NCBI GenBank assembly: GCA_012845835.1
Contig: JABAKD010000017.1
Span: 1,044,001-1,108,000, forward strand
DNA: 64,000 bases
Reading direction: 5' to 3'
DNA from: Undaria pinnatifida
Taxonomy: Eukaryota; Sar; Phaeophyceae; Laminariales; Alariaceae
The notes beneath the pieces are model-generated. The model had not been told where the DNA came from. It saw nothing but the letters and a program-made list of their open reading frames with translations, and searched no databases. Of this stretch, positions 25,622 to 62,137 are shown in pieces (within the stretch, counting starts at the first letter, position 1; each line of letters begins with the position of its first letter). The position numbers were made by a program, and so were the translations under genes.

Positions 25622-25960
25622 GCGGCGGCAGCACCACCACCAACAACAACAGTGGCACCAGCGCCAGCCGAACCGGCAGCAGCACCGGCAGGATGAGGCT
25701 GTTCAGCAGGGCCGGCTTCGGAATCAAAGTAGGGACGTTCCTAGCGCTGGGCGGACCCGCGCGGAGCTTCCACGTCAACTATGCCAGACCTAACCATGCC
25801 AGAATCAACTATTTCAGATCCAACCATTCAACATTCAACCATGCTAGGTTAGCTTCCTCGATCGCGGCGCACCAGGCGAGAACGCAAGCATTTCAGGGGG
25901 CTGTAGCGCCCGTTCTGGCAGCAACGCGGCCTCAAAGAGGAATGGAGGCCTACCATGGGG
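25489..25960 (+). CDS. Probable first exon of the 5'-nucleotidase gene
   Basis: The open frame has a Ser-rich tract coded by an AGC/GGC repeat (about 25560-25640) and then, from ATG 25693, an Arg-rich, acid-poor segment (MRLFSRAGFGIKVGTFLAL...) that looks like a mitochondrial presequence. The frame meets a GTAGGG donor at 25961 in phase 1, which fits the phase of the next exon at 27120. Either ATG 25489 or ATG 25693 could be the start; 25693 gives the better targeting signal. Assignment to the gene rests on strand, distance and phase only. Confidence 0.42.
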
Positions 25961-27119: not shown

Positions 27120-28816
27120 GGTCAGCTGCTACTGGGAACGCGAAAACGAGATTGGCGTCGACAGGGACTGGCGTGGGTGGGGGCGACGGCTCGGAGATTT
27201 TTTGCAATCGGGAGCTCAACATGAAGCAAGTGAGTTTTTTGTTTGTGAGCTCGCCGCGCTTCGCTCCCCTCCTGACTTCCAGGACACTTAGTAGGTTTTA
27301 CGACATGGCCTTGCTTTGACAGGCTACCTGATACTTCACACTACGGTAGAGGTCCCTTTATTGCGCCGGTTGAGTAGGGCGGGTTGCCCGGTGTAGTGCG
27401 TGTGTTTTCTTTTGGCACAGATGGGTACAACCAGTGGTAGCAGTATGCGGAGTAGTGCCGGTTGCCTCTTTAGTGCCGGTAGCTCCGGGTAGCAGACAAA
27501 CTGGCTCCCTTGTTTCATCTTCGTTTTGATATAATGCCCAGGCTATCGGGCTATCGGGGTTGACAGTTGACAGTTTATTACAACTCCTCGTTACGTCTTG
27601 CACTCCGACAAATTTCCACGATTTTTTACGGGTCACGCACGATCCGGCCCACGAACCTTTAAACAAACTCGCGGGTCGAGTCGGGTCGGGTCAGGAAATG
27701 TTGGAAATGTCACGGGACGGGTCGGGTTGGGTCGGGTCAGGAGGTTATCAAACATTGCGGGTCGGGTCGGGTGACCCTGGCCCGACCCGACCCCCGAGTA
27801 ACTATCCGACCCATGAAAAGCCCTGCAAATTTCGCAATCGGTCTGGGTTGGGAGGTTTTTTTTTTTTTAGATCGTCTCGCTTCGCTCCCTCGCGAGTTTC
27901 CAGTACATAGCAGCGTTTACGTCTTGGCCCAGCTTCGACAAAGTGGTTCGGCGTCCACGCTACGGTAGTGTCTCCCTATAATGCTGGGATGTGCCAACCG
28001 GAAAAATTGCGGCACTGTAGTGGCAACCGGCACTACTCCGCATGCTGCCACTATCGGTTGTTCTCATATGTGCCACGCTGTTTCGCAGGCACTATAGCAG
28101 GCAACGGGCGCTACTTCACCGTCACTATAGAGGGATCACTGCTGTATAGCTAACTCCTCGTTTTACGTCTTCACCCGCCCTGTCTGTACGGGTTCGCGCG
28201 GTGTGAATTTGGGACGTGCTTCCCAGATCAAGGCGGTTGGATTCGATATGGATTACACCCTCGCGCAATATTTCACCGCGTTTGATCAGCTAGCGTTTGA
28301 TGGGGCGAAGGAAAAGCTTATCCAGAATCTGGGCTACCCTATGGAGGTGCACGCTTTCAAATACGACCCGGAGTTTTTTGCGAGGGGTCTGGTCATCGAC
28401 CTTGAGAGGGGTGAGCGTGTGATGGTGGTGGTGGTGGTGGGCCGGCAGGTTGGGCGGGGTGGGCTGGTGGCTGAGGTCCTAGTGGTGGTTGTGGTGGCGG
28501 TGGTGACGGTGATGGTGATTGATGATGGTGGTGATAGTGGTGTTGGTTGTGGCGGGGGTGGTGGTGATGGTCGTGATGACGATAGCGGTGGTGTTGGTGT
28601 TGGTGTTGGCGGTGACGTTGGTATTGATGGTGGTGCTGTTGATGGTATTGGTGGTATTGGGGGAGGTGGTGATGGTGACGGTGGTGTTGATGGCGTTGAT
28701 GTTGGTGCCGGTGGTAGTGTTGGTGGTGGTGTTGGTGGTGTTGGTGGTGTTGGTGGTGTTGGTGGTGTTGTTGTTGGTGGTGCTATTAGTGATGGTGGTG
28801 TTAGTCATGGTGGTTG

Positions 28817-28856
<40 letters not shown>

Positions 28857-31800
28857 GGTGTTGCTGTTGCTGTTGCTGTTGCTGTTCGTGCTCGTGTTCG
28901 TGTTTGCGTTCGTGTTCGTTGCAACGGGTAACAGTGGTGGTGGTTACGGTCGCGGCGATGGAGGTGGTGATATGTAAGCATCGTAGCTCTCTCACTCCTT
29001 TTGACTGGTTGGTTGGTCGCCAACTCAAACATTGCTCTTCCTGCCTACAGTCGGCGGCGTCGGCGATTGCCACCTCTCGACCCTATACTGTGTCTGGTAG
29101 ATTGACAACTAGCTCAGTCCTTTATCCTTCTCCAACTCCCGTCACATGCAGGCAACATCATCGATTGCCCACTCCACCACTGCTTTTTGATTGGTGGATT
29201 GATAACCAACTCGGCAATCATTGTCCTGCTCCTGCCACCGCTACATGCAGGCAACATTCTGAAGATGGACCGACATAGATACATCCGAGTGGCATTTCAC
29301 GGCTTCAGGAAGCTCGAGAGCGACGAACGGAAACGCGTTTACTTGGACGGAGCAAAGGTTCGCCCTCGCTGCGCACGAGGTTTACATATATAGTTGCTTC
29401 AGTGCTATTACGGAAGAAGCCATTGTAATCGCAACCTACGATAAAGACCAAAACCTACATTTTTTCCCTTTTTTTTTATTACCTATCTTTGGTTTGTCCA
29501 TATCCATTCTATTGCCTTCGCACTTGCGCGACTCTCCTTCCCTATGTAGACGTAACTCAGGTCCGGGGTCACCAAACAGGCCCTACCCCCCCTCCCCACC
29601 ACGGGAAATGCCTTCATGTTTATCGCGGGAAGATTCCAGCTATTTTCTTCCCTCTCGCATCGAATTGTGCCTGCCCACACTGCTAGCGCTCTCAGCTGTT
29701 GACTGCTTGTTTTTTCAGTTTTGCAAATAAACTCAGAAGTCCGACCCACGTGGAAATCAAACCCCAGAACCAACTCTAGTGCGTAACGTTCGAGGTTAAC
29801 CACTAGACCACCGGGGCGACCGACCATAATTGGTTCCGATTACTAGGTGCTCCTTTGATAGCAATCATTTTTTCGTAGCTGGGCGTGTGGAGTTTTCCGC
29901 CGAAAACCGGCCTTGTTCCCGGGTTTGTTTTTTGTGAAAGATGGATTTACGATCTTTCGTCGGGTGTGAGTTCGAGTAGTTGTTACCAGGCAATGTCTGT
30001 TTTAGGTAATGCCCGATTGTTCTGTTTTGCGACTTTTGATACTCACGTTTCGCTTTTAATTTTCGCGCTCAATCTTCAAGTTGCAGTTTTCAATTTTCAG
30101 TGTTCAGTTTGCACGTTGCGATTCCAACCTTTTGTGTTGAGTCTTCATTTTCCATTTTTTTTTGCAGATGCGCACGTTCACCGGGTCGAAATACGTTTCG
30201 ATGGACACGTTGTTTTCTTTGGTGGACGCCATGCTCTACGCGCACCTCGTGGAGTTGAAGGACAGCAACAGCGGGCTCGTCATGGACAAGGTGAGGATCG
30301 GAAAGTGGTGGGAACGCTTTGGTTATACCAGGTAGTTTTTTGTTTGTTTTTGTTGTTGTTATTGTTGTTGTAGTAGTAGTTGTGGTTTCTTGTTCCTTCG
30401 TTATTCTTCGTGTTTTGTATTTGTTCCTTGGTCCTGTTATTCTTCTTGCTTTCAATATTTGAATCTATCGGAGGGTTTTACACCTACTCCGGGCTCGTCA
30501 TGGATACGGCGAGGAACAAATATGGAGTCCGAAGTCTTTAGATAGTGTTGATGTGCAGCCACTACTGCTGTGCGCACGAGTACGAGAGTACGAGTATCTT
30601 AGTTTAAATAATTGTTCCGCCGAAAGTGATGTGCCGCGAGACAACGCGTTCAAGAGTTTCCCGTTGGTTGCTCACTTTGCTATATACGTTCAACTCACCC
30701 CTTGTCGGCTCATGGATAGCAGTAGTTTTGTAGAGGTAACAGAAAAAAATCCTCAGCTGCGAGATAAAATACTAATGTCAAAAGCCATATTTTCAAGCTG
30801 CATGTGAGGCGATGACCGCGCGTGCTAATGACGGAGATCCATTGTTAACAGGGGTAAATGCCTTATTATCATGTTGCAAAAATTGACCGGAAATTTCTCA
30901 TGATTTTCGCAACATCTCGGCCAGAACATCCTATATTATTATTTTTTTTAATTTTTGCGCCGTGACCGTAAGGCCTATGCGAACAATCCAAGCTATCGTT
31001 TACCGTTTTCGACGAAGAATTGACAGAGTTATGACCCCATAGACTAGGCATTAAATGACCCCTGTTAGCAATGGACCTCCGTCAATAAGCAGGTTAACGA
31101 CCTCAATGTTGGAAGATGGCTGGCTTTCCACGACAGGCATCAGGGACTGCTGCTGTAGAAGGGACAATCGGTCTGCGTTCTGCTTACCGTTGCGGTTGTA
31201 CGCTACTTCGCTAAAAGCGAAGGCCCGCTGCGCATAATACGATCAGCATACATGTCACGTACCAGGAAGAGTAATCTTGGGATGCCAAAACTCGGGGACG
31301 CAAGAAGGATGTCCCCGGGGTTGAATAAAGTCTCGTGGGAGACCTTGCAATGATCCCATAGTATAGATCCGATATGAATTTAAGCGACGACGGAATGTCA
31401 CGGCCTTTGACCTGCTTGATCGATCAAGAAACGGCAGTCTCTGCTTCTGCCCTGTATTTTTTTTGCACGTGGTATCCATCCGTGAGTCTTTTCGACACTA
31501 TGCCCAGCGTGCTATCGTAGTTATCATCCCCAATGAAAAATCGGGGATGATAACTACGATAGAGGTGTTACTGCCTTAAGGTATACCATTTTTTGGCGAA
31601 AACGTTTTCTGAATGTCGGGGCTCTTGTAACCTCTGATCGCCGGAACTTTTTTTTTTTTGCAATATTATTGATGCTTTTTCATCGCGGCTTTTCACGGCC
31701 CGGATCATTGCTCGCGGGTCGGACCGGGTCAGGGTAACCCGACCCGACCCGTGAGATTTCGAGCACCTCCTGACCCGACCCGATCCGATCCGATCTGATC

Positions 31801-34800
31801 CGATCCGATCCGATCCGATCCGATCCGATCCGATCCAATCCGATCCGATCCGATCCGATCCGATCCGTGAGAAGTCTACCACCTCCTGACCCGACCCGAC
31901 CCGACCTGACGGATTTTGAAAACCTCCTGACCCAACCCGTGGGTCGGGTCGTGCCCCATGAAAAACCCTGGTTTTATGCATTGGCGACCAAAATGTGGGT
32001 TGACAGCACTCTTGCCCCTTGACGGACAGCAGCCGTCAAGACGGACAGCCGTCAAGGAACTCCACACACTAAAACTAGTATGATAAGTCCAAAGACCCCT
32101 TGACGAGTCGAAACTAGGCCGTCAACCGACATCTTTGTAGGCGATGAGTCTGTCCATCATGTTGCACGTTAAGTTAGTCTACTCAAGATTCGGTTTCTGG
32201 GGGAGACACACACGGTAGAGCACATCAGGTGAAGAACCTCAGAAAAACATTAGAGGGTAGCAGGTAGCTTTGTCTGCAATACTCAAGAAAACAAGGCAAC
32301 AGACTGAGCGGTGTATGGTGTGTTTGATAGAGAGAATGAAGCATGTCTGTGTCGGGAATCGCGGTCGCAGGGGAATGTAGAAATAGGTAAACGAGTCCCC
32401 CAGGACCAGTCTCGGATGCAGCTCGTTGCATGCAGGCTAGCAAGGGCACGCCGAGCGCAAGCGAGTTGGTGCCCTTGCTGATAACGTGGGCAGACACGAT
32501 GTAGTCCCTAGATTGGCCAGCCAAGCCGGGCGTTTGGGTATTTTATTATTGCCAAGCCAGGCGTTTGAGTCTCGGAGGAGCCTGAGGAAAACAATAGATG
32601 CGCCGCTATCGTGGTATGGTTCCTTGGTAACCTCTTCAAACCTCATCCCTCCAATGCTCCCGTTTGTTGGTGAAGGCGTCGGGATCTTGCCCTTACGACA
32701 TAACCATTTACTAGAGCTGTGAATCGGCACGACTTAATTCGCCAACTAGTTATTAGTCGCACTAATAGTTAGTCGTTCCCCGGGGGAGGTGCCGACTCTC
32801 GGGCTTATTGGATGTCCATACTTGTAGGAAGGAAAGTTGAATGCGGGATACGTGTCCCCGTTTTTAGGCGGGGTTCCCTCGTGCGGGGGGTGTGTGATTT
32901 GGCTCGCTTCGGACTTAAGTCGGCAATTCGGCTGAGCATCAGCTGATTTCGCCAGCCGACTTGCCGACTAAAGTCACTTACTTAGTTAACGGCACCTACC
33001 GATTGGCTATTTGTTGTGAAATCCTGCCGACTCACAGTTTTACTCTTTACCCGATTTTGCGTGTTCATCGTGCGCCTTAGTGTTCAGCGAGTGGAACGTC
33101 CAGCCCCCATTCGTTCTACACAACCTGTCCATTCGCTAGTTCGCCTTGTTTTGGGGTCGAGCCACAACAAGGCGAGATAGCGAATGGGACGGCTGCTGTG
33201 GATGAATGGGTGGAATGATACTCAAAGTCCACTCGCCAACGAAGGCGCATCATGAAAGCACAATTCTACATCTCCGTTCCGGTAGTTTCATTTCGTCCAA
33301 ACCTCAGGAACCCTTTCGAGTTGCCTGATGCGCCTGCCGACCACCAGCATAAACGAGTTGACGATAGCAACGTACGGAAGTCATAGCGGCAGCTGAGTTT
33401 TTTTTTCCGCGTACGATCCATTCTTGTGTAAATCCGCCTCTCTGTTCTTTGCTCTTTTTTTTCATTCCGCCTCGTCGCGTCCCGCTCTATTTCTTATTAC
33501 CCCGCGTCGTGCCCTGCTCTATTTTTCATTACCCCGCGTCGGGCCCCGCTTTCCAGTCGTACGAGCAGCTATTCCGGGACGTTCGGAAGTGCGTTGACCT
33601 TTGTCATCGCGACGGTGTCATCAAGGACAGGGTGGCAGAAGATCCGGCCAGGTAGAATAGCACCGCTGTAGACAGTTTCAGTGTACCAATAGGCCAGACC
33701 AGGCAACAACAAACTCCTTTTGATAGTCTGAACAGGGCTTTCTGTGACACCAACCTTCAGCAATCTTGAGCAACCTTGAGCATAGGCGGGTGCATAGGCG
33801 ATAGTGCAGCGCTCACCGCCGAGCACGATTCCTTATTCCCTGTTCCTTAGCATACCCCCCATGTTGGATGTTTTGTACCACCCACTGAGCGTCTGAATCA
33901 CGTGACTCAGTAGCTCAGTGGGTAGTACGATATAACCAACACCCCAGCAAATAAGGCGTTTTTGCCACCGTGATGGCGTCATCAAGGGCAGGGTGGAAGA
34001 CGACATCGCCAGGTACATATAGACTCGCCCCTGTGGCGTATCAGGTTATCCTCGAGCCTGGTATGGATCAGTTTCGTGAGTTCGAGCCCCACCGAGTGCA
34101 TATTCGTATAAATTCGATGGGACTTTTTCTTGTGCACAAATTGACTGGCGGAAAGCGCGAGAGCGTGAGTTAGCAACACTCGATGAAGAATCGACGAGCA
34201 GTGGGATTGCTGAACCCTATGCGCGATAAAAATTGAAGGCAAGAACCAGGGGGGAGAAGGGACGACACCTGTGACCACGGCTTGTCCAGAAGCTGGAAAG
34301 TAAAAGTGTGAGAAAAAAAAAAAGACTAAATCATGAGCTCGCTGGGGCTGGTCGGCGTTACTTGACCGATTATTTGCCCGGAGATTAGTTTCTTGCGTCG
34401 TACCTGGTTATTGCTTGTAGGAACGCCTGTGTTTCCCCTTATTAACTTTCGATACCCGTGTTCCAGCTAGCGTTGGGTTGCGAAAGCAACTGAGTTAAAT
34501 CGACACACGACGCGTATAAAAAAACGTGAAAGTGTGGTGAGCTTGAGCTTTTTTTTTCGACCCCATCCGCCGGAGGATGAAAAAAAAAAAGACACCCGCG
34601 GGATTTGAGGCGAAGCATATCCCGAAGGGGAACCTTGTAGATTCATGGTGAAGATTGTTAGAGGTCGGAAACCCGACCAGATAATAATGTGTATTTTGTT
34701 GCGAGAGAGAACTACGTAGGCGTTTTGGTTCGTATGATGCGGTTGCATAATTGACATTGATTGCTGCAGCATGGCAGTGTTTGATTGGTCGCGTCAGTGG

Positions 34801-37800
34801 CAATACCAAGGGGATACAGCACGGGACGGTGCTGGCAGACTGATAGAACACGCGAACAAAATATGTGATGTTGCTGGAAGCTGCCCAGCAGCTGCTGGGC
34901 CAGGTATTCGTGATTTCACAATATTGTGGTACTGGTATGATGGGTCAAGAAAGGGCTCCAGACCAAACGTTCTACTTGTAGGAGACCGCAGTGTCGCCAT
35001 GTGACTGACCGTTCCTACAACACTACAATCAGTATATTGGACCCTTGAGAGCTGCCACCATTGTTGGGGGGCCAACAAGTTGGAATTTGAATGGCGTGAT
35101 TTTTGCAGAAACGGGGTTAGGGGCAAGTCAGATTTGCTCGATAGGAGCCGAGGTTTGACCCCTTGACGGACGGCCCCTTTCGCGCACACTAAAGTCAATG
35201 TGATACTCTACTGCAAGCGCTCGCTAGAAACTCGCCCTACTATAATAGATACTTTAAAACTGTTGCCAACCCGACCGAACCCAACCCAACCCAATCCAAC
35301 CCAACCCAACCCAACCCAACCCAACCCAACCCAACCCAACCCAACCCAACCCAACCCAACCCAACCCAACCCAACACAGCACAACACAACACAACACAAC
35401 ACAACACAACACAACGCAACGCAACACAACACAACACAACACACCACAATACAACACAACACAACACAACACAACACAACACAACACAACACAACACAAC
35501 ACAACACAACACAACACAACACAACACAACACAACACAACACAACACAACACAACACAACACAACACAACACAACACAACACAACACAACACAACACAAC
35601 ACAACACAACACAACACAACACAACACAACACAACACAACACAACACAACACAACACAACACAACACAACACAACACAACACAACACAACACAACACAAC
35701 ACAACACAACACAACACAACACAACACAACACAACACAACACAACACAACACAACACAACACAACACAACACAACACAACACGACACAACACAACACAAC
35801 ACAACACAACACAACACAACACAACACAACACAACACAATACAACACAACACAACACAACACAACACAACACAACAAAACACAACACAACACAACACAAC
35901 ACAACACAACACAACCCAACCCAACCCAACCCAACACAGCACAACACAACACAACACAACACAACACAACACAACGCAACGCAACACAACACAACACAAC
36001 ACACCACAATACAACACAACACAACACAACACAACACAACACAACACAACACAACACAACACAACACAACACAACACAACACAACACAACACAACACAAC
36101 ACAACACAACACAACACAACACAACACAACACAACACAACACAACGCAACAAAACACAACACAACACAACACAACACAACACAAAACAACGCAACACAAC
36201 ACAACACAACACAATACAACACAACACAACACAACACAACACAACACAACACAACAAAACACAACACAACACAACACAACACAACACAACACAACACAAC
36301 ACAACACAACACAACACAACACAACACAACACAACACAACACAACACAACACAACACAACACAACACAACACGACACAACACAACACAACACAACACAAC
36401 ACAACACAACACAACACAACACAACACAACACAACACCACACAACACAACACGATCCGATCCGATCCGACCCAATTGTGCGGCGCACTTGCGACCTCGAC
36501 GTGGATTGAGCAGGTACATTATTCCGGACCCAGAGATGGTGCCCATGCTCAAGCGTCTCCGTAGAGAAGGCGCGCAGGTGACGACAGCTGTGTTTGGGTA
36601 TGAGGCATAGCCAATGCGTCGGTTGCGTAGTTTGCAGCCGCCGTGGGGCTTGTTCGTGGTGGTGGTGGTGGTGGTGATGGTGATGGTCGTAGTATTGGTG
36701 GCTTTTTGTGTGGTGTTGGGTTTGGTCGACTGCTGCTGCTGGTGGTGTTGGTGCTTTTGCTGTTGCTTGTTGTTATTGTTGTTGTTGTTGTTGTTGTTGT
36801 CGTTGTTGTCGTTGTCGTCGGTGCTGGCATTGGTGTTGGGGTGTTTTTGTTGCTGTAGTTTAGTGTCGGTCGTGCTGGCATTGGTGCTAGTGGAGTTGGT
36901 GTTGATGTCTTGCTCATGTTGTTGCGATTTGTTTCGTCAGGCTCGGCCCCAACCGGTTGACTTTGTGGTCGATCTCGCTACGCAACCACTTAGTGAGCCC
37001 CTCTTCCCTTTGGCGTTTCTGCCGACGAACAGTGTGTGAGACTACGCGCACGTCGTGATGCCTTTTTTTGTCCGATAACGCATAAGATCTTTCGCGTCGG
37101 ACTAGATAGCAGTAGCACGCGCACTCAATACGTCCTTACGTGGCGATGAATGATTTGTGCAACAACGCTGGCATGATTCGCAACGGACTAGACAGCTGTA
37201 GGACACAATGTAACACGTTTCTTGCACGATGATTAAGCTTGCAAGCGGTAATACTTGAGATATTTGTGCCCTCTACTTTTAAGTGTTTCTGCTGACCAAC
37301 AGTTTGTGGCACGACGCGCACATCGTGGAGTTTTTTTTATGCGGTAACGCTAAAAAAGAGGACTGGACTCGACAGCAGCATCACATGCAATACGTTCTTG
37401 CGTGGCTATTAACTTTTTTTTCCCCGGTAACGCTACCGCTTTACCCTGAGGTGTTTCTGTTGGGTTGTGTAACCACACGCACGTAGTGTTGATTTGTCAT
37501 GCGGTAACGCTGTTGTCTTCCCCGGCGGACTAGACGGCAGCACGTGCGACACGTTCTTTTATGGCGATGGACTCTTTATTGGATAACGCTAGCATCTTTC
37601 GTAACGGATTAGACAGCAGCAGCACAACGTAATACGTTCTTGCGCGGTGATTCACTTTGTATGACTGAGATATTTTTTGTCCTCTACCCTTAGGTGTTTC
37701 TGCTGACCAACAGTTTATGGGACTACACGCACGTCGTGATGAACTTTTTATGCGGTAACGCTAAGAAGGAGGACCGGACGACGGAGTGGCTAGACCTCTT

Positions 37801-40800
37801 CGACGTCGCCATCACCGGAGCTTGCAAGGTAAGAAGGTTGAACGGGATTCTGAAACTTTGTTAGATTGACACTGCTAGCTTGCAAGGAAGGTAAGGTTCA
37901 GGTTGTCTAACTTTTTAGCCTCGCTTCCTCCCTCCTCCCCCCCCCTCCCCCTCCCTCCGTCCCCCTCTTCCCCCCTTCCCCTCACCCCCGCCCTCCCCTC
38001 CCCCTGTCCCTCCTTCTGTCCTTCTCTCCCTCTGATTTGCCAGCCAAGCTTCTTGATTGAACCGTACTTATCACTGTTCCGAGTCGAAACGGCAACAGGT
38101 AGCCTGAGCAATACGGATGGGATCATGGGACCGGTCAAGGATTTCCTCGCCGAGGGAAAGGTGCGTGTAATGATCACCAGAAGCAGAAACGCCGCACCTT
38201 GTTTTGCGTCTGTTTCGCTTTTGTGTTATTGGTGATAATCGTTTTGTGTTTTGTTGTGTCTTGTTTTTTGCATATTGCCTTTTTTGTGCATATTTTTTCG
38301 TTTAGTTTTTGGTAAGGGTGTATGCGTGCCTGCGTTTTGTTTTCGTGTGTTTTTGTACTAATGTTGTGCAGGCGTTTTCGATCGATGTCGGGTTTTCATA
38401 GCGTTAGGTAGGCGGTGTGCATATATCGGGGCCGGGGGCGCTTCTGTTAAAGCCCTGTTTACACAAGTAGTTGAAAATTTCTCGCACATTCTCTCTCGCG
38501 CTCGTTTTCTTTGTTCACCTTTTCTTTCCCGCTTTTCTGTTTTCATTCTTTGTTCTTCCGTTGATCGTCAATCTTGTTCATTTTTTCGTTTTTGGTTTTC
38601 CGTTCCTTCACTGGTCGGTTTTCGCTTTTCGTTTTCATTTTGTCTTTTTTCGTTTCCTCCAGGTATTCCAGGGAGGCAAGCTTTTCTATTTTCGTTCGTC
38701 GTTCTTCCGTTGATAGTCTATGTGTTCTTTTTTCCGTTTTTCGTTTTGCGTGCCTTCATTGGTCGGCTTCCGCTTTTCTTTTCGTTTTATTTTTCGTTTT
38801 TTCGTTTTTCCAGGTGTTCCAGGGAGGCAACTGGCTACACCTGCACGACCTACTTAGCCTGTCTTCGGGGGATCAGGTACTGCTAGAACAAAAACACAAA
38901 ATGTTTCCAACACCCGGTTTTTTAGCCCGTATCATAAACGGTATCGGTACATGGGGCGGGGACGCCCCCGTGCATGCGCTGATGAAAGCTTCAAAAGTTG
39001 ATCGGAAATTTCTGACAGGGTCTTGAGAGTTCCCTATATCTTCTAGTTGAGGGCTTTGCTTTTCGGGTGGGAAATGTCTAAGCGAGTCGCAAGTGTCTTG
39101 TCTGTCTGTCTGTCTGTCCACCACCACCATCACCACCGCCACCGCCGCCACCACCACTACCTCCTCCACCACCACCACCACCGCCGCCGTCGCCACCATC
39201 ACCACCATCACCACCACCACCACCACCACCACCACCACCACCACCTTTGCTTTTCGTACACGGTACGCTTTACATTGCATTGCCAATTCTTGTCTGTCTG
39301 TCTGTCTGCCTGTCTGTCTGTCTGTCTGCCTGCCTGCCTGTCTGTTTCTTTGTCGGTCTGTCTGCCTGTGTGCATATCGCCCAAAGCTTCTGTACGTGGG
39401 GGACCACATGTTCGCGGACATCTTGAGGTCGAAGAGAACGCTGGGGTGGCGAACATGCCTCATCGTTCCCGAATTGGAGGGCGAGATGAACGCTCATCGA
39501 CAGAACAAGGACCTAAGGTACGCATGTACCACGGTTTGATGATGATGCGGTACACGCTTGCTTCCATTTGATATCGAGGAAATTCACTAGTTTTGGGAGG
39601 GAAATGCGCTAAGATATACACACATATATCCGATTTCGCATGTTGTTTTGTTCAGTAGAAGCGCGTGAACGATCCGGGCGCTGTGCGCGTCACCGTGTCT
39701 GGTATCTCGTCGGCCCACGGACGCGAGCCAGCAATCACCGCATTCACCACAATAACAAGCACGAAACACCAACAGCTAAAAAGAAGATAGCACATCACCA
39801 GCAACAACACACGCCAACGGTACCATCAACACTACTCACATCAACAAACTCACAAACACAATCACAACAACAGCAACAACACCACCACCAACACCAACAA
39901 CAACCACGAGCACCACCGCCATCACAGCAACAACAACCACAGCCGAAATCACAACCACCACCACCACCACCACCACCACCACCGCCACCACCGCAACCAC
40001 CACCGCAGCCACCGCAACCACAACAACCACAACAACCACAACAACCACGGGGACCACCACCAGTATCATCACAACAAGGATGACAACAATCGTTGTTCGC
40101 CTTGCGCAGGGTCAAGGTGAACAAGCTGAGGACTCTGCAGTACAACCTGGACGCCCGGCTCGACCGCGTACGATTAGAAGCCATGGTAAGGGTAGAATGT
40201 TGTCCGTTTCGGCCCTGTTGACTCAAGACGCGTGCTACGATGGGGGTGCACCGCTTTTTTTCTAATACTACCCATCAATTTGGGAGCTTAAGAACTCTCC
40301 CAAAATCCCATTTTTTGGAGAAAAACATAACTGCTACCGGATGAGAAATCCCATGGTCTAGGTCCGTGCGCAAGGAGAATCATGCGAAATAAAGTGGCCT
40401 ATTATTTATTTTTTCCCGACGATTTTGGGTTAAGAAGCCCCCCCATTCAGAAACATTTCAGACGGAAAGTGGTACCTCTCTCGTAGCATGCGTCGGGGGG
40501 TGGGGGGGGGGGTGGCTCGGCATGGACGCATTTCCTCAAGGAGGCTATTCAGATTATCGTGAAGCTTGTTTTATCATCCTACGTGTTGTTGTGTTCATCA
40601 TGTGCGGTACGTAATACGACTTGGGTTTCGTTTTTTCGTCGTCCATTAGTTGTTTTTTCGTATGCTGCCCTAGTTTTTGTAAACCCTGTACTTGAAGATA
40701 GTTTCGGCCATTCCCTTTTCTGAAGTGTTTTGTGCCCTTAATTTTTTCTTGTTTCCTGTCCTTGGTCTTTCCTTTCTGTGAGTGCTCTTGTTTGCCAGTT

Positions 40801-43800
40801 ATTTTTTGTGCTTCTCGCTCGTTCCCTTCTTTTTTACTTCTGATTTGTGTATGCTTTCCCTTCTTATTTCCTTCTTTTTTCCTTGTGGGGCTTTGTTCCT
40901 CATTTTTTCCGGCGTACTTCCTTGTGGTTGCCTCCTGATTTCGTTGTGGTTGCCTCCTTCTCAGTGTGCTCCAACGCCAGCTCTCGCACTACCAGGCGCT
41001 TTTGTTCCTCCTCCTTGGTTACTTGGTGCGCACGAGTTTTTTTTTTTCGTTTCACTTGTAAGGATTTATTCATTCTGTTTCGCTCAACCTGGCAGGAGAA
41101 AACATTTATGTCTTGCGCAGGCAGCACCAGCGCCAGCGCCTTCAGTTTTTTTTGCTCTTTTTTTCCCCCCCGACAATGATCGCGTCGTTTTTTTTTTCCA
41201 TGCTCTTGTTTGCTCCTTGGTGATGTTTCATATTTTTTTTTGCGCGTTTCCTTCTGGTTCCCTTGTTAAGTTTGTTCCTTCCTACTTTGTTTTTTTCGAC
41301 CCGTGCAATGGTAGAAGTAGCACGTCCTCTTGTTTTTTTCTGAATGATAGGGCTCCTTAACCCCCCTTTAGAGCTCCCAAACCCCTCTCTATACCATTTC
41401 CAAGTAGTTTTGTCCCCAAAAGGGGGTATCCACTTGTCAAGGCGTTGACCCAAAATCGTCCGAATGACGTTTCATACCTAGGCCATGCGTTTGTTCATCG
41501 GGTTTGCACTTTTTCAATTAACTCAGGCCGCGTGCTACAATAGAGGAGCACCCCTTTTTTTTCCGAGGTGTTCTTAATTCGGGAGCTTAAGACATGATCC
41601 TCCCAATTTCAATTTGGAGAAAAATAAAACCGCTACAAGTACCGGATACGAGAATCCCGTGGCCTAGGCACAGAACGAGAATCATCATGCAAATAGAAAA
41701 AAACGCCTTACGAGTAACTTCCGACGATTGTGGATTAAGGAGCCCTCTCATTCACTCATTCACAAACCGTTCATTTCAGGCGAAAAGTGCTGGTACCTCT
41801 ATCGTAGCACGCGTCTTTTTCATACAGTCGCAGCCGACGTAATTTCTTCGTCCTTTTCTTTTTTTTTCCTTCATGTAGTCATGCTTGTCTCATTTTTTCT
41901 AATATCTTGTCTTTTGGACGCCTGTCAGGAGGAGGATTCTTCTCCCGCGGCGGCCTCGGACCTCTTGGCGTTAGAAGACGAGCAGGTTCGCTTGAAGACC
42001 GTCCTGAGAGATGACAGCCTCCTTTTCCACTCCAAATTCCACCCGGACTGGGGACAGCTGTTCAAGTCAGGCTACCAGGACTCTCGCTTTGCCATACAGG
42101 TGAGGTTGGTTTGGTTCCGTGATACAGCAGGGGGTCCCCCAGTTAGACGGTCGTGTGCCAGAGCAACATGACCGCCTTTTGGGGGGAAGCCGCCTTAGTC
42201 GTTCCGGGTTATGTGTGCAACTCCCCAGTCGCGCCAAGCGGTTTTGACCGCGTTATAAAGGGATACCACCTTACTCAGACCGCCTTATTGAGGGACCTCT
42301 ATGGGGTCACCAGGTCCTGTCCCCAAGATCGCACCGCCTCATTGTCACGATAACCTTTCAAGGTCATCCTGACTCCTCCGGGGCGCTCTTGAGGTTATCC
42401 GTGTTGCTGACCCCCGAAAGTCCGGTTACGCGTACAACCCACCTCGCCGTGTCTCCACACCCCCCTTCTGAAGAAGAGATTTACCTGCTGCGGTGCTACA
42501 GTCCCTCACCGGCTGTAACCAAAATAAGAGTGCCGCGAACTGTGCTGTGCAAGAGCAACTTATCCCCTTTAGGAGCTATACGCACGTTTCAGGGACAAGA
42601 CACTTGGAATTTGTGTCATGTGTTTTTTGCAGCAGTGAAAAGGGCTGTACGGTGATGTTGTCGGGACCCTGGGCTATTAATAGGATCTACCGATGACGCA
42701 AGCGAGAAGTGCGGTTTTATCCAGGGCGTTTCATGACCCGTCGGGTCAGGCAAGAGCTTCCCATGTTCTCGCTGGTCAACTCGGTCCGTGGGTCAGGAGG
42801 TAGTTGGGACTCACACGGGTGGGAACAGGTCGGACCACGAGGTTTTTTCAAACACCACGGGCCGCTTCGTGTCACCCTGACCCGACCCGACCCGACCCGA
42901 CCCGACCCGACCCGACACGACCCGACCCGACCCGACCCGACCCGACCCGACCCAACCCAACCCAACCCAACCCGTCCCGACCCGTGAAAAGCCCTGGTTT
43001 TCTGAAGCGTCTATGTTGGAAGGGTATGCAGCAGGAGAAATATTGTGACGCTGCGCGCGTGTCGTGACGCATTCTGCGGTAAGGGTACACCTTTTTTTTT
43101 GTCAATCTTCGAGTCATCCCACGATAGGGGTTGCAGTTTTTTCGTCAAAAAGTCCCTGGCCAATTGAGCTCCTCGCATGTCATATGTAAGGAACTACCGG
43201 TTAGTAAAACAATTTCACGAGTACCTATTTTTTACAGGACTAAGGCATTGAAGCTTGGTCGGGATGTGCGAACGAATGCCTTCCAAGTAATTTTTCCGGT
43301 GGGATATTGAGTTCCTCATGTGAGGACCTCAGCGACTTTCCACGGCACCCCACCCCCCTACCGTGGGATGGTTCTGAGGCTCTTAAACATATGAGTAGCT
43401 CCATGCCTCAGAATGATGGTCAAACTCAAAGTGCAACCCGATGAACCATCCCCCATACCACACCCATAGCCTACGTACATATACACAAACCGTTTCACGT
43501 GACCAGAATGCCGTTCCAACGGTTTTGTTAATGGTATTTATAGTATCGATAACTATTAGTACTATTTTAGTGTTAATAGTGTTAATAGGTTCACGCCTTT
43601 ACCCCTGGAGGATAAACGCCTATACCCCTGGAAACCATGTTTGGGGACAAATTTACTTGAAGTTAGTATAGGGAGGGATTTGGGGGCTCTAAAGGGGTCA
43701 CGAAGCCCCGTCATTCGGAAAATGCCTCATTTTGAACGTAAACAGTGCGCCACCTCTATCGTAGACATTTTTTTTTTTTTCTAAACACCCCAAATAGGTT

Positions 43801-46800
43801 CCTAAGGCCATTTCTTATACAGTGAGATTTGTCAGTCGAAAACGGCCTTTTTCGGCTGAAGCCCAAATCGGTCTTTCTTACGCAGTCAAAAAAGGGCTTT
43901 TCCGACTCGACTTTTTTCGACTGAGAATTGCGACTGGCGGATCCAGTCGAAAAACTCAGTAGAAAAAGTTTTACACGTTTTTTTTGAACCGATCGCATCG
44001 CTCATCCCACTATCAAACACACACCCACACGGCCACACGGCCATACACCCATACCAGGTACCACACAGCAGTATCATCCAAGTGCTGACGCTGGCTTGGC
44101 TATCACTGCTGTTTATTGCTTCTCGCAGTAAGTCAGCGTGGCGCATTCCTAGTTCCGCTCGCCAGCGGCGTGTATCACATGACGGCGGCAGCGCGCGGTA
44201 TTGATCCCATGCTGCCAACAACGGCTGCGCCTGCTGTAGCTTTGGCGGCTCTCGGCTGAGTGCAACTCCACGAAAGTAGCTTTGGCGGCTTTCGGCGAAG
44301 CCCAAAGCCACCAACCCGCTGAGACGAGGGTTCGTCGAGCCGCTGCTCGCGGAGAAAGCGGAAGCGCAGAGCTGCCAACCGATTTCGACTGCCGTACAGC
44401 AGTACTTCCTCACACCAACCGCCTCAAGGAAGAGCACAAAAACTATAAACTCGACTCGACTGACGATGAGAAGGACGAGAAGAATCCAGTCGAAAAAAAG
44501 TCCAGTCGAAGAGGGCCGTTTTCGACTGGCGGAATCCGACTGTGTAAGAAATGGCCTCAGGTTAGTTGTGGTTTTCATGGTAGGAGGTAGGCCGATGACG
44601 TCCGCTTCTGTCACTCTCAGCGTTTTTAAGTTTCTCGGCTGTGTTGTGGCTGTCTGCGCCCAATCCCTTTTTTCTTCTGTTTTTGTGCGGTAACTGGGTC
44701 TACGCCTAACATGTTTTTCCTTCGCTTTTTCTTCTCTTTCGTATTTTTCGTTTTAACTGGCTATACAGCGCCCATTCCCTCTGTTCTTCTGTTTTATGCT
44801 GTAACTGTCCACACACCCTACAACCTCTCTTTTGTCTTCCTCATTTTGTGCTCTAACCCTAAGTCATACGCTGAATGCCTCAATAGGTGGCGACCTACGC
44901 TTGCATCTACACTTCGAAGGCTAGCAATCTCGCAAGGGTGAGTGGCTGTTAATGGGCGTTTTTTTTTTTTTTTTTTTTGGCGCATGGCATGAGTCTGGTC
45001 GTTTTCTCTTGAGCGTTTTTGTTGTTCTGGTCGTCGTCGTTGTTGTTGTTGTTGTGCTTTGTTGCGAAGATTTATGCTATACCGCGCTCTTGTATCTTGT
45101 TTTTTCAGTCCCTGTTTTCTAGCGTAGCGGTCGCTCCATTGGGTTCAGCATCCATCTGGCTGGGTTGACCTAGCGCAACTGGTCGACGCCTGGTTGATCG
45201 GTTAATACTGGGAGTACGATTTTTTGTCATTGCGTCATTGCCTGTTTGTATGGTATGTTTGATCGTTTATTTGGTCATTTCAGGGTTTTTCATGGGTCGG
45301 ATCACTTCTCGCGTTAAGGATCGGGTTCAGGGTGACCCGGCCCGACCCGTGGTATTTGAAACCTCCGGACCCGACTTGACTCGACCCGACCCGACCCGAA
45401 CCGAGCCGAGCCGAGCCGAGCCGAGCCGAGCCGACCCGTGAGATTTCGAACACCTCCTGATCCGACCCGACTCGAGCCGCGACTTTTTGACAACCTCCTG
45501 ACCCGTGAAAAGCCGTGGTTACTGTGATCGTCTGATTGACTTACCGGTTGCCCGTGCAGGTAAGCACCCAGCGATCTTTCCGGCCTGTCCGAGACGTGTC
45601 CGCCCATGACCTCATCATCGAAGCAGCGGACGACCCAGATGTAAGCCGTCAGCGGGTGCTTAACCCTTTTGGTAACCCTCTGGCCCCATGTACTATATTA
45701 TACTATAGACTATAATACTATATAATACTATATCATACTATACTTCTATATTATAGTATATCTTACTGTATCATACAGCGACAGAACATTTTTCAAGCGC
45801 GGTCTTATCATGGTGCGAGCTTGCAGCACACGGCAGTGCAAGCTATGCATGTGTCTCTCCGGCACTTACGTTGGAGTTCGACGGTAGAACTGTCGCCAAC
45901 TAATCTAGCCACCCGGGTCGCTTCGTGTGAACGATGCTGCGATCGTCAGGTTCTCTTCGTCATTTTTTCCCCTCTGAAGCTCCAAAAGGGTTCGCAGCCA
46001 CCCATGCGATGCAGTCTGTGGCTCTCGCCCAGTTTTTTTTCCTTTTTTTTCTCAATTGGATACAGTGTTAACGCTAGCCGTGAGGTGGTCCTCGTACTGT
46101 AACTTCAACTTGCACGTGCACGTGCACTTGAATTTGGACTTGAACCTCAGGTTGAACTGGGAGCGTTAAGACAGCGTCTTCTTCAGCCCAAGACTCAGCC
46201 ACACCTTCCGATTCTAACTTCAACCTTACAACAGGATCTGTATTTCAAAATTCATACGTCGATTGGATAGCAACCTAAACAACACTGAGAAGGTCATTGG
46301 TACTGACCATCGATACAATACATCACTGAGTATCTATTGCTGGCACTCCAGAATCCCTTAGCTGCAACATCGTACTGCAACTTCAACTTCAACTTGAACT
46401 CGCATCTCAGGGCGAACTGGAGGCGTTGCGGTGGCATCTTCTGAACCCCAAGGCTCAGCCCAACTTTACAACTCCAAGTTAAACGTTGTAACGTACTCTG
46501 TGTTTCGAAAGTTCCACGTAATTTCAACTTCAACCTAGTTTCAACCTCAACTTGAACTTCGAGGTGAAATTGCACCTCAGGGCGAACTGGGGGCATTGCG
46601 GCAGCCTTGTTATACCCGAAGACACGGCCTAACATCGAAGCTCTTACCTTCAATCTTGCAGCAACTATAGACTATAGTCTATATGTAAATCGAATTTCAC
46701 GGGAATTTCAACTTCAATGTCGTACTGCAGCTGCTTGTAACGTGCAAATGAACTCCAACGTGAATTTTAACCTCGGGGAGAAATGGCGGCGCTGCTACAG

Positions 46801-47042
46801 CGTCTTCTGCAGCCCAAGACACAGTCCAACCTTACGAATCTAACTTCAACCTGAAAAATCATCTGTACCTCAAACTTGCGCCGGGATTTCATGCCGTACT
46901 GCATGTCTAACTTGAACGTGACAGTCGTACTGCAACGTCAATCTAATCCTTGTACTGCAACTTGAAACTGGTACGTTGATTATAACCTCAGGGCGAACTG
47001 GAGGCGTTGCGGCAGCGTCTGCTGCAACCCAAGACCCAGTGA
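27120..47042 (+). CDS. HAD-superfamily 5'-nucleotidase (NT5DC-type), 14 exons mapped
   Basis: Likely a cytosolic purine-type 5'-nucleotidase (5_nucleotid family) that removes phosphate from nucleoside monophosphates. Exons: 27120-27229, 28227-28410, 29251-29357, 30168-30290, 33557-33651, 36514-36577, 37694-37828, 38044-38160, 38814-38876, 39387-39517, 40110-40185, 41929-42099, 44887-44937, 45560-45640, 46992-47042. That is 15 blocks, of which 27120-27229 is exon 2 if 25489-25960 is exon 1; the last ends in TGA. All junctions agree in phase and nearly all are GT-AG with normal consensus; exon 39387 uses a CCAAAG acceptor. Motifs in order: [12 protein letters not shown], catalytic [11 protein letters not shown] (DxDxT), LIDTLF-like [11 protein letters not shown] motif [12 protein letters not shown], motif III lysine before PSF, motif [16 protein letters not shown], then GWRT and VPELEGE. 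The mapped part codes for about 485 residues, normal for the family. Introns are 0.2-3.3 kb and full of mobile elements. The terminal exon could instead be the copy at 46151. Confidence 0.88.
27342..27520. repeat. CTACGGTAGAGG-bounded repeat
   Basis: It begins CACTACGGTAGAGGTCCCTTTATTGCGCCGGTT and holds several GTGCCGGT and GTAGTGCCGGTTGCC blocks in both orientations. Related sequence lies at 27959-28149. The end is not clear. Confidence 0.4.
27617..27825. mobile_element. hAT-like MITE with perfect 8-bp target duplication
   Basis: The element runs from CACGATTTTTTACGGGTCACGC to ATGAAAAGCCCTG and is flanked on both sides by CAAATTTC (27609-27616 and 27826-27833). The interior is GGGTCGGGTCGGGTCAGG-type repeats on the left and the complementary ACCCGACCCG on the right. 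This copy identifies the whole family as TIR elements with 8-bp duplications, the hAT hallmark. It lies inside the intron before the GFDMDYTLA exon. Confidence 0.85.
27959..28149. mobile_element. Small TIR-like element (CTACGGTAGTG...)
   Basis: The left end CTACGGTAGTGTCTCCCTATA is matched by the reverse complement of TATAGAGGGATCACTGCTGTATAG on the right. The interior has AACCGGCACTACTCCGCATGCTGCCACTATCGGTT, itself a partial palindrome. No coding sequence. Confidence 0.5.
28420..28945. repeat. GGT/GTT trinucleotide array in nucleotidase intron
   Basis: An imperfect (GGT)n/(GTT)n array starts just after the donor at 28411. The long Gly/Val, Leu/Val, Cys and Thr/Asn frames on both strands come from the repeat. 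Confidence 0.95.
28985..29250 (+). repeat. ~100-bp tandem units repeating the exon-3 acceptor
   Basis: Three units each have a TTGATTGGTTGGT..CCAACTC region, then a pyrimidine stretch and an acceptor: CTACAG at 29050, CATGCAG at 29151 and CATGCAG at 29250. Unit 2 also repeats the first bases of the exon (GCAACAT). Only the last is followed by the open exon ILKMDRHRY, so the first two are decayed duplicates of the 3' splice site and exon edge. Confidence 0.75.
29465..29828 (-). mobile_element. tRNA-derived SINE, minus strand, best-preserved promoter
   Basis: On the minus strand the 5' end (about 29820) reads GCCCCGGTGGTCTAGTGGTTAAC, a clear A box (TGGTCTAGTGG). About 40 nt on comes GGTTCTGGGGTTTGATTTCC with a B-box-like GGTTTGATTTC. 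The body has AATTCGATGCGAGAGGGAAGAAA and CGCGATAAACATGAAGGCA; the 3' block is GTGACCCCGGACCTGAGTTACG, and the end is A-rich (AATAAAAAAAAAGGGAAAAAA). It is inserted in the intron before the 30168 exon. Confidence 0.78.
30480..30530 (+). pseudogene. Decayed copy of the 3' edge of exon 30168-30290
   Basis: CTCCGGGCTCGTCATGGATACGGCGAGGA matches the end of the upstream exon and its donor, CAGCGGGCTCGTCATGGACAAGGTGAGGA. The copy lies about 200 bp into the following intron and has lost the GT donor. Confidence 0.7.
30829..31084. mobile_element. 256-bp MITE with ~36-bp TIRs
   Basis: The left TIR TGACGGAGATCCATTGTTAACAGGGGTAAATGCC pairs with the right end GGCATTAAATGACCCCTGTTAGCAATGGACCTCCGTCA. The interior is AT-rich and non-coding. 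The target duplication is not certain (TAA on the left, ATAA on the right). Confidence 0.8.
31512..31562. repeat. Perfect hairpin, 20-bp arms
   Basis: CTATCGTAGTTATCATCCCC (31512-31531), 11-nt loop, exact reverse complement 31543-31562. The outer CTATCGTAG equals the TIR core of the 270-bp MITE family at 40227 and 41528, so it may be a collapsed fold-back copy. Confidence 0.95.
31684..31970. mobile_element. hAT-like GGGTC/CCGATC repeat element
   Basis: The termini CGCGGCTTTTCACGG and CATGAAAAACCCTG match the family. The interior has a (CCGAT)n/(GGATC)n expansion near 31775-31868 instead of pure CCCGA. The flanks (TTTTTCAT and GTTTTATG) agree only partly. Confidence 0.65.
31995..32131. mobile_element. 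MITE, GGTTGACGGC family, copy 1
   Basis: The left end GGGTTGACAGCACTCTTGCCCCTTGACGG is mirrored by CCTTGACGAGTCGAAACTAGGCCGTCAACCGAC on the right, with an internal CCGTCAAG minisatellite and ACTCCACACACTAAAACTAGTATGATAAGTCCAAAGAC. The fuller copy is at 52289-52500; a fragment is near 35155-35210. Confidence 0.7.
32132..33094. other. Intron sequence; nothing recognised
   Basis: Intron between nucleotidase exons at 30290 and 33557. Frames up to 99 codons on both strands overlap and have no motif. The segment 32740-33000 has repeated AGTCGGC/GCCGACT and TTAGTTAG motifs but no clear unit. Confidence 0.4.
33095..33225. repeat. Inverted repeat with 22-bp near-perfect inner arms
   Basis: CCATTCGCTAGTTCGCCTTGTT (about 33131-33152) pairs with AACAAGGCGAGATAGCGAATGG (about 33167-33188). 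Weaker pairing extends outward (CCCCCATTCGTTCTACACAACC with GCTGTGGATGAATGGGTGG). Confidence 0.8.
33876..33927. repeat. 15-bp-arm hairpin containing a tRNA A-box-like sequence
   Basis: TACCACCCACTGAGC pairs with GCTCAGTGGGTAGTA. The right arm reads TAGCTCAGTGGGTAG, which matches a tRNA A box, but no B box or cloverleaf follows, so it is not called a tRNA. Confidence 0.7.
33960..34013 (+). pseudogene. Decayed copy of the 3' edge of exon 33557-33651
   Basis: CACCGTGATGGCGTCATCAAGGGCAGGGTGG...GCCAG|GTAC matches CATCGCGACGGTGTCATCAAGGACAGGGTGG...GCCAG|GTAG at the end of the exon, about 360 bp further into the intron. The donor GT is retained, and a SINE starts directly at it. Confidence 0.8.
34014..34325 (+). 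mobile_element. tRNA-derived SINE, copy 2
   Basis: It has the same head, body and A-rich end as 117-474: CGCCCCTGTGGCGTATCAGGTTATCCTCGAGCCTGGTAT, B-box-like GAGTTCGAGCCC, then GCGAGAGCGTGAGTTAGCAACACTCGATGAAGAATCGACG and CCACGGCTTGTCCAGAAGCTGG. It ends in an A12 tract. Confidence 0.8.
35275..36475. repeat. 1.2-kb CCAAC/ACAAC satellite inside an intron
   Basis: (CCAAC)n for about 100 bp, then (ACAAC)n to about 36450 with rare variants, ending in (GATCC)n. A variant block ...CCAACACAGCACAAC...AACGCAACGCAAC...ACACCACAATAC occurs at 35370-35455 and again at 35930-36015, showing an internal ~560-bp duplication. The 400-plus-codon frames on both strands (NTTQH; VVLCC) are artefacts. The array sits between nucleotidase exons 33651 and 36514. 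Confidence 0.98.
36650..36910. repeat. GGT/GTT microsatellite in nucleotidase intron
   Basis: Imperfect trinucleotide array starting about 75 bp after the donor at 36578. Confidence 0.9.
37005..37690 (+). pseudogene. Three tandem decayed copies of the motif-II exon (37694)
   Basis: Copies start near 37012, 37283 and 37450. Each aligns with GTGTTTCTGCTGACCAACAGTTTATGGGACTACACGCACGTCGTGATG and with TGCGGTAACGCTAAGAAGGAGGAC of the working exon, and each is followed by GACTAGACAGCAG...AATACGTTCTTGCG. Copy 1 has a frame-changing difference and TGA. Copy 2 (37283-37430) still reads FLLTNSLW...[11 protein letters not shown] in frame but has TTAAG instead of TTAG at its acceptor. Copy 3 is strongly diverged. 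Spacing is about 270, 167 and 244 bp. Confidence 0.88.
38570..38700 (+). pseudogene. Decayed copy of acceptor and start of exon 38814
   Basis: CCTCCAG|GTATTCCAGGGAGGCAAGC matches TTTCCAG|GTGTTCCAGGGAGGCAACT at 38805-38832. The upstream 100 bp (CATTTTTTCGTTTTTGGTTTTCCGTTCC...ACTGGTCGG) is also repeated, so the unit of about 150 bp includes the pyrimidine tract. Confidence 0.85.
39100..39375. repeat. CTGT and CAC microsatellites in nucleotidase intron
   Basis: (CTGT)n near 39098-39118 and 39292-39365 flank a (CACCAC)n array at 39119-39243, close to the acceptor of the GDHMFADIL exon. Confidence 0.95.
39840..40075. repeat. CAA/CCA/CCG microsatellite in nucleotidase intron
   Basis: Imperfect CAACAA-CCACCA array ending about 35 bp before the acceptor at 40109. 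Confidence 0.93.
40227..40494. mobile_element. ~270-bp MITE (GCGTGCTACGATAGAGGTGCACC TIR), copy 1
   Basis: The left end GACGCGTGCTACGATGGGGGTGCACC pairs with the right end GGTACCTCTCTCGTAGCATGCGTC. The interior has GGGAGCTTAAGA, TTTTTTGGAGAAAAA and CCGACGATTTTGGGTTAAG, shared with copy 2. Non-coding; lies in the intron after exon 40110-40185. Confidence 0.82.
41336..41490 (-). mobile_element. MITE fragment, inverted relative to 43600-43775
   Basis: The reverse complement contains CCCCTTTTGGGGACAAAACTACTTGGAAATGGTATAGAGAGGGGTTTGGGAGCTCTAAAGG, aligning with 43630-43700. It appears to be an arm of the same TIR family as 40227. Confidence 0.55.
41528..41815. mobile_element. ~285-bp MITE, same family, copy 2
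   Basis: The left end GCCGCGTGCTACAATAGAGGAGCACC and the right end GGTACCTCTATCGTAGCACGCGTC are inverted repeats. The internal order is as in copy 1 (GGGAGCTTAAGACATG, TTTGGAGAAAAATAA, TTCCGACGATTGTGGATTAAGG). It ends about 110 bp before the acceptor at 41928. Confidence 0.85.
42123..42370 (+). mobile_element. TA-flanked MITE (GGGGTCCCCCAGTAAGGCGGT family), copy 2
   Basis: It starts TA-CAGCAGGGGGTCCCCCAGTTAGACGGT about 25 bp after the donor at 42100. It contains GACCGCCTTTTGGGGGGAAGCCGCCTTA and ACCGCCTTATTGAGGGACCTCTA, the inverted counterpart of the left end. Confidence 0.68.
42722..42996. mobile_element. hAT-like CCCGA-repeat element in nucleotidase intron
   Basis: CAGGGCGTTTCATGACCCG to CCCGTGAAAAGCCCTG. 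The flanking octamers GTTTTATC and GTTTTCTG match at 6 of 8. The right half is a pure (CCCGA)n/(CCCAA)n array. Confidence 0.72.
43110..43440. repeat. Dispersed repeat with GAGCTCCTCAyGTxAGGAGCTCAG hairpin, copy 1
   Basis: GCTTGGTCGGGATGTGCGAACGAATGCCTTCCAAGTAA, TTGAGTTCCTCATGTGAGGACCTCAG and CACCCC...CTACCGTGGGATGGTTCTGAGG match the copies at 50390-50790 and 60930-61130. The central hairpin is kept although its sequence differs. Confidence 0.72.
43600..43775 (+). mobile_element. MITE fragment ending CCACCTCTATCGTAGAC
   Basis: It carries TTTGGGGGCTCTAAAGGGGTCACGAAGCCCCGTCATTCGG and ends GCGCCACCTCTATCGTAGAC, the right TIR of the 270-bp family. The left part (43530-43600) is AT-rich. Confidence 0.6.
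43802..44560. mobile_element. 759-bp TIR element (CTAAGGCCATTTCTTATACAGT)
   Basis: The left end CTAAGGCCATTTCTTATACAGTGAGATTTGTCAGTCGAAAACGGCC is matched by the reverse complement of the right end GGCCGTTTTCGACTGGCGGAATCCGACTGTGTAAGAAATGGCCTCAG. Repeated AGTCGAAAA subterminal blocks occur at both ends. A minus-strand frame runs across the middle but has no known domain. A fragment is at 22485-22590. Confidence 0.8.
45281..45517. mobile_element. hAT-like CCCGA/CCGAG-repeat element
   Basis: CAGGGTTTTTCATGGGTCGG to CCCGTGAAAAGCCGTG; the interior has GACCCG and (CCGAG)n blocks. It ends 42 bp before the acceptor of exon 45560-45640. The flanking octamers do not match well. Confidence 0.62.
45690..45780. 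repeat. AT-rich TACTATA microsatellite
   Basis: (ATACTATA)n-like repeats in the intron before the terminal exon. Confidence 0.85.
46141..46830 (+). pseudogene. Four tandem copies of the nucleotidase terminal exon
   Basis: Exon-like copies start at 46151, 46411, 46581 and about 46776; the intact terminal exon is 46992-47042. Each has CCTCAG|GGCGAACTGGAGGCGTTGCGGCAGCGTCTTCTGCAGCCCAAGACTCAG-type sequence, preceded by AACTTCAACTTCAACTTGAAC. The 46151 copy has a good acceptor and an open frame (start [16 protein letters not shown]) that runs on 23 codons past the normal end, so it could be used instead. The 46411 and 46581 copies are diverged but open; the fourth has lost its AG. Confidence 0.85.
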
Positions 47043-47680
47043 GAGGCTTGAGTGTGCCGGGGCGAAGTTCAGCATGGATTGTGCTGACTGATTGCCCAGC
47101 ACTAGACGAGTTAGTTGCTGTTGGTTGTGCGTAGGTCTGCGCAACGCTGACATGCGGACGATTCGTCTGCCGAACCTGCGACACTGTTGTTGTTTTTGTT
47201 ATGCGTTGGGGTGGGGCGGAGCGGGGCGGGGTGGCGATAATACCGCCTCCCAAGGCATGGCTGAAGTTCTCACCCTAAAGTTGAAGTTGAAGTTGGGGTT
47301 GAACTTGGAGCAAGTTGAAGACGACGCTGGGGTTGAATTTCGAGTTGAAGCTCGACTTTGTTATGGAGTTGAATTTGAAATGAGTTGAAGAGAACTCGCG
47401 GTCTATTTTGGAGATGACCATGAATTTTATTGTAGAGCTTGGGGCAAGTTGAAAATGAACTTGGGGTTTAATTTGGAGTTCAAGTTGAAGCTGGAGTTGG
47501 AGAGCGAAAAACTGCGTAGTAGGTACTTCACTGGAATACGGAGTGACTTGCGTTTTGTTGTATATTATTAATGGCATGCTAGTAATACTTGTACTTCGGG
47601 GAGGCGAGCTCGGCCTTATTTATTTCCACCCGTTCTCGCCAGCGTGAAACTACTGGTGCTGGACACTTACCAGGCAACCA
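47043..47680. other. 3' flank of the nucleotidase gene with GAAGTT repeats
   Basis: 47260-47520 holds AAGTTGAAGTTGGGGTTGAACTTGGAG repeats, the reverse complement of the AACTTCAACTTCAAC blocks in the preceding intron. No other gene is seen. No clear polyadenylation signal was picked out. Confidence 0.5.
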
Positions 47681-49010: not shown

Positions 49011-49030
49011 CAAAGACGCCCCGACCACCC
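48430..49030 (-). pseudogene. Repeated exon-like edge (LFERECDKAA...)
   Basis: On the minus strand three copies of a short coding-like stretch are seen near 49000, 48800 and 48450. The last is preceded by a good acceptor (GTGAGCGCAG) and reads LRFLSLFERECDKAT. The rest of the gene was not found; it could belong to the minus-strand gene at 51.5-55.6 kb. Confidence 0.4.

Positions 49031-59496: not shown

Positions 59497-59530
<34 letters not shown>

Positions 59531-62087: not shown

Positions 62088-62137
<50 letters not shown>

Follow-up and report, generated by a model that had tools for sequence, protein, structure and literature searches.

We found that several coding edges in a 64,000-nucleotide stretch of the Undaria pinnatifida nuclear genome (hereafter the window) are accompanied by decayed copies of themselves in the adjoining intron or downstream DNA, and that such copies are about as frequent at coding edges as in matched non-coding DNA of the same window. 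Most likely, local tandem duplication affects all DNA here alike, and the events that cross a coding edge survive while the spare copy decays. Under this explanation, duplication would act across the genome region regardless of gene structure; where a unit crosses one coding edge, one copy would stay on the exon and keep a working splice site or stop codon, and the other would fall in the intron or in downstream DNA, where, being unneeded, it would decay. Repeated rounds would produce arrays, and introns would lengthen while old exon edges and splice sites persist in them as fossils. The sequence of these steps is inferred, as is the molecular mechanism behind the duplications.

The copies lie in and around two genes (Table 1). 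The product of gene 1 matches PF05761 with an E-value of 1.1e-147 (Pfam) and is 79-82% identical to proteins from the brown algae Scytosiphon, Ectocarpus and Pylaiella, and 81% identical to one further protein. For gene 2, the spliced model of the first ten exons is 100% identical to P0133 (label Undpi1, read here as Undaria pinnatifida) over all 578 residues, which confirms these exons. Its last exon was placed by similarity to P0134, a relative of the gene 2 product for which PF00856 is listed. P0133 reads past 50885 (50885-50835) into a region treated as intron by other relatives, and appears to lack the terminal exon, which P0134 supports. Scanning the window against Rfam and for tRNAs returned no match, and none of ten other ORFs reached the Pfam cut-off.

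Table 1. Gene models and exon-edge copies in the window (positions of the window; minus-strand exons are written in reading direction).
Feature	Position	Strand	Evidence or remark
Gene 1, 5'-nucleotidase family (PF05761)	28227-47042	+	Open joined frame, Pfam, ortholog alignment, tblastn
Gene 1, upstream coding pieces	27123-27230 and from 25693	+	ATG at 25693
Gene 1, earlier exons	28227-28410, 29251-29357, 30168-30290, 33557-33651, 36514-36577, 37694-37828, 38044-38160	+	
Gene 1, later exons	38814-38876, 39387-39517, 40110-40185, 41929-42099, 44887-44937, 45560-45640, 46992-47042	+	
Repeat of intron end and 7 nt of exon 29251	29064-29158	+	About 97 bp; against 29162-29257, 68/93 identical
Donor-side copy, end of exon 30168-30290	30480-30544	+	45/64 identical; donor GT reads GC
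Donor-side copy, end of exon 33557-33651	33961-34015	+	78% over 55 columns, tblastn; GT kept
Three decayed copies, intron end and head of exon 37694	36999-37511	+	175/217, 90/122 and 73/85 identical
Copy of intron end and 17 nt of exon 38814	38531-38679	+	Acceptor AG kept
Four decayed copies, head of terminal exon 46992 and upstream intron	46140-46877	+	
Gene 2, SET-domain protein	48942-63947	-	P0133 identity and P0134 similarity
Gene 2, exons 1-6	63947-63885, 62973-62725, 62356-62195, 62013-61880, 60340-60179, 57984-57775	-	
Gene 2, exons 7-12	57296-56938, 55570-55494, 54243-54111, 52166-51982, 50960-50885, 49177-48942	-	
Donor-side copy, end of exon 52166-51982 and intron start	51567-51619	-	p 0.005; donor GT reads AT
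Array 3' of gene 2 stop codon	47679-49017	-	Terminal-exon tail copies at 48802-48737 and 48446-48405

Taken together, a shuffle test, alignments and a list of local pairs place all six gene 1 sites described in an earlier note on this DNA at the positions given there, including the three copies before exon 37694, the single copy before 38814, the four before 46992 and the donor-side copies after 30290 and 33651. The shuffle test set only the exon bases of an edge (at most 60 nt) against the intron next to it (at most 1500 nt), with 200 dinucleotide shuffles for each edge. Adjacent copies holding exon sequence were detected at 5 of the 28 tested splice edges of gene 1 (p 0.005-0.010 against shuffled introns): edges 33651, 37694, 38814 and 46992 gave the lowest possible value of 0.005, and edge 30290 gave 0.010 with a score of 17, yet a non-adjacent intron scored 18. 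The sixth site, 29251, was said to hold two copies of about 100-bp period; the repeat is real, but it includes little of the exon (p 0.93 on exon bases alone), and the copy further upstream is weak (37/52 identical). The acceptor of exon 36514 (p 0.025) was left out of the count, its score of 10 being low. With ortholog proteins as queries, tblastn found not only the exons but also, as matches of their own, the decayed copies at 33963-34019 and 37283-37375 and a weak one at 37016-37066 (E 0.13).

Both the intron end and the exon edge of the unit could be aligned at 37694, 38814, 46992 and the gene 2 donor edge of 52166-51982, whereas the intron part of the copy is short or uncertain at 30290 and 33651. 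A far prolongation of the 33651 copy into the intron looked forced as an alignment and was not used. The copy joined to the body of the exon, which the earlier note described as the intact one, is the best match to orthologous proteins, and the proximal splice site is probably the one in use. Exon 37694 contains residues that are invariant across all 7 aligned proteins, those of Tribonema and Chrysoparadoxa among them, indicating that this exon is older than its array and was the source of it. Local duplication extending into an exon edge is extensive in two introns of gene 1, making up 62% of the intron 36578-37693 and 31% of the intron 45641-46991.

Among 19 tested splice edges of gene 2, one has an adjacent copy (p 0.005, shuffle test), the donor side of exon 52166-51982; it accounts for the minus-strand array previously reported at 51.5-52.0 kb. 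The array reported at 48.4-49.0 kb also contains real copies, found by tblastn with brown algal proteins at E 0.006 (the more gene-proximal tail copy) and E 0.11 (the other), but they follow the stop codon of the terminal exon and no splice site is involved. This one array at a stop-codon end shows that splicing is not required for edge copies to arise. A 26-base stretch of the coding tail recurs at 11 places in 47679-48967 with at most 8 mismatches, the exon itself counted. At the third minus-strand locus, 13.8 kb, a local pair of 73% identity (13822-13881 and 14352-14410) is present, but no exon was found there. As a separate candidate, a tblastn extension hinted that the intron separating gene 2 exons 54243-54111 and 52166-51982 had been gained, a reading set aside here; the AGGT-type comparison, made for this one intron (54111-52166), gave a weak DNA alignment (score 25).

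Self-comparison of the masked window yielded 102 local pairs at a score of at least 30, in 31 clusters. In 62 of the 102 the two members are no more than 600 bp apart, and altogether the pairs span 7876 of the 60709 bases outside modelled exons. At scores of at least 36, the range for which the shuffle controls report (the cluster list begins at 30), there are 67 pairs in the window and 0 in 5 shuffles. When non-coding probes of 60 nt were searched for a copy within 1500 nt (score at least 15), a copy was found for 15.7% of 534 probes in gene 1 introns, 14.6% of 328 in gene 2 introns, 14.9% of 913 at 5-25.5 kb and 31.6% of 152 at 47.1-51.5 kb. Thus the earlier statement that copies at six junctions of a single gene are far more than chance stands against shuffled sequence, but not against the density of local duplication elsewhere in the window.

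This comparison bears on the rival idea that tandem duplication strikes splice junctions by preference, so that introns grow chiefly from their ends. Six of the 11 local-repeat clusters of gene 1 share 7 nt or more with an exon, as such a preference would have it, but the edge rates equal the non-coding rates in every version of the test, each covering two genes in one window and dropping edges from scoring where the flank was too short or the masking too heavy. In the probe version 6 of 45 scored coding edges (out of 48) had a copy, against 12.5-15.3% of 1349 intronic probes at spans of 600-1500 nt, and 4 of 45 against 10.6% at a span of 300 nt (score 15 throughout); at two thresholds and for every span from 300 to 1500 nt, edges and introns had rates that simulation did not tell apart (one-sided values 0.42-0.78). 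Matched-length pseudo-exons gave 11.7% (score 15) and 14.4% (score 14), and coding edges 6/47 (out of 50). With the last two exons of gene 2 added, the count became 7/51 (out of 54) against 11.8% and 14.4%, the seventh match being the stop-codon end of gene 2, and at score 17 it was 6/51 against 8.8%. Coding edges in this window therefore showed no excess over matched non-coding DNA of the kind that junction-targeted duplication would leave, although a pair with one constrained copy should stay visible longer than a pair of two free copies, so that equal rates may mask some deficit or excess. The earlier note had named an equal occurrence of copies at random distances from exons as grounds for refuting its proposal, and within the window this is what we observe. 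Gene 2 adds little to a junction preference, with its single splice edge and its other case at a stop codon, and we regard such a preference as very unlikely. The proposal that introns grow by duplication across junctions holds in that crossing duplications have lengthened introns; it is not supported as something special to splice junctions or to gene 1. Two further explanations concern the spare copies themselves: that some are functional, as alternative acceptors or as decoy or regulatory exon pieces under selection, and that they are artefacts of assembly, with collapsed or stacked alleles or repeats.

A free fossil paired with a constrained exon is predicted to differ at codon positions 1, 2 and 3 in a ratio of about 1:1:2, whereas two functional copies would show few differences at positions 1 and 2. 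Across 11 exon-fossil pairs, a set without the repeat at 29251 and without the copies of gene 2's last exon, we observe 25/176, 18/181 and 46/176 differences, the third position differing about twice as frequently as the first or second. This excess is what a drifting fossil beside a constrained exon should produce; the pooled pattern thus fits free decay and agrees with the earlier description of the other copies as decaying, in that they look like neutral fossils. Single pairs scatter: the 30290 pair differs at 2, 2 and 0 sites, with no third-position excess, and copy 46140 at 1, 1 and 7, and the latter, with 8 synonymous changes and 1 other relative to the exon, is a point in favour of function. 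The dinucleotide AG is retained in eight fossil acceptors (in one shifted by a base) and GT in the 33651 copy, but eight of these nine splice sites would meet a stop, seven of the eight acceptors among them. The exception, the acceptor before 29152, lies 99 nt upstream, intact, in frame and stop-free, and would add 33 residues; the insert is absent from all 6 aligned orthologs. Exon-to-fossil distances (0.17-0.31 at 37694, 0.21-0.30 at 46992) are mostly smaller than fossil-to-fossil distances (0.31-0.40 and 0.30-0.48). Within the arrays the intron parts, which are hard to align and whose distances are used cautiously, have diverged by 0.35-1.10, far more than the exon parts, even when two fossils are compared (0.30-0.48). 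Lesser divergence of exon-derived parts could speak for function; the gap would fit stepwise copying from a constrained exon, and residual constraint or poor alignment would also produce it in the arrays. Overall, we judge functional copies unlikely. Assembly errors often fall in tandem arrays, but the copies here are about 70-95% identical with substitutions spread along them, too diverged for stacked alleles, which makes an artefact exceedingly improbable.

The explanation by indiscriminate local duplication also bears on which events survive. The exon stays intact when a unit crosses only one of its coding edges, whereas a unit containing the whole exon would put a copy of the far edge on the opposite side. 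Only 1 of 51 edges had an opposite-side copy of this kind, in gene 1's terminal exon of 51 nt; the expectations were 9.7% (score 15, p 0.036), 12.0% (score 14, p 0.012) and 7.3% (score 17, p 0.10, where the deficit fades). With the far edge copied in this one case, we found no whole-exon tandem duplication, that is, no second full exon with both edges, at the edges scored. Direct comparison of right and wrong sides gave 0.06, 0.06 and 0.11 at scores 15, 14 and 17 (Fisher). In a smaller exon set the opposite-side count was 1/47 (p 0.02 at score 14, 0.05 at score 15), and in another version 2/50, both in exons of at most 63 nt. The scarcity of opposite-side copies suggests selection, without proving it.

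Transposons are often held responsible for intron lengthening. In Ectocarpus, introns are long and tandem repeats relatively evenly spread (PMC12477816), and the mean intron of Saccharina is 1,057 bp (PMC4421812). The type of event described here is already published: in a potato RdRp gene, a tandem duplication unit likewise spans an intron-exon boundary, and the outcome there is different, with a partly exonic upstream copy and a new intron that has RNA support (PMC4974935). In Undaria, by contrast, the old intron appears to hold the whole of the upstream copy, often several times over, and no new intron is seen; the gene models require no extra intron, and gene 2 matches P0133 exactly. The Rogers model of intron gain through a duplicated exonic AGGT segment (PMC3443670, PMC2891723) is similar in that coding sequence is tandemly duplicated and part of it turns intronic, but its unit lies inside an exon and creates an intron, whereas here the unit spans an edge already present and extends the existing intron or downstream DNA. 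Exonize catalogues exon-like matches inside introns, and the accessible text neither compares edge with non-coding rates nor mentions brown algae (PMC12343006); tandem exon duplications are treated in PMC9013439. The available part of the Undaria genome paper (PMC7058681) contains nothing on edge-crossing duplication, and among the matches listed in our literature search, whose scope left out most subscription journals, none described lengthening of brown algal introns by this route.

These controls show that an apparently junction-specific pattern can arise from a general process viewed only at junctions. Because selection holds one copy still, fossils of exon edges could be used to date the growth of introns and reveal how unused splice sites decay. 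Tentatively, and with some doubt on our part, about one in eight coding edges genome-wide may carry a fossil copy, which would make edge-crossing duplication a regular way for introns to lengthen in those brown algae whose introns are large. Each fossil would then have its constrained counterpart in the exon, and such pairs would act as a built-in clock both for the growth of introns and for the decay of splice sites no longer used.

Repeats of other kinds were also observed in the window. The intron before exon 36514 contains a 1.2-kb array (35278-36452) of 235 copies of the 5-bp unit AACAC. At 6573-8265 lies a large near-perfect inverted repeat with arms of 524 nt (98%), 206 nt (99%) and 74 nt (93%), which jointly form one palindrome with a 99-nt centre. 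Finally, the coding start of gene 1 includes a 30-bp unit repeated 2.3 times (25775-25844), indicating that coding sequence there has also been touched by tandem duplication.
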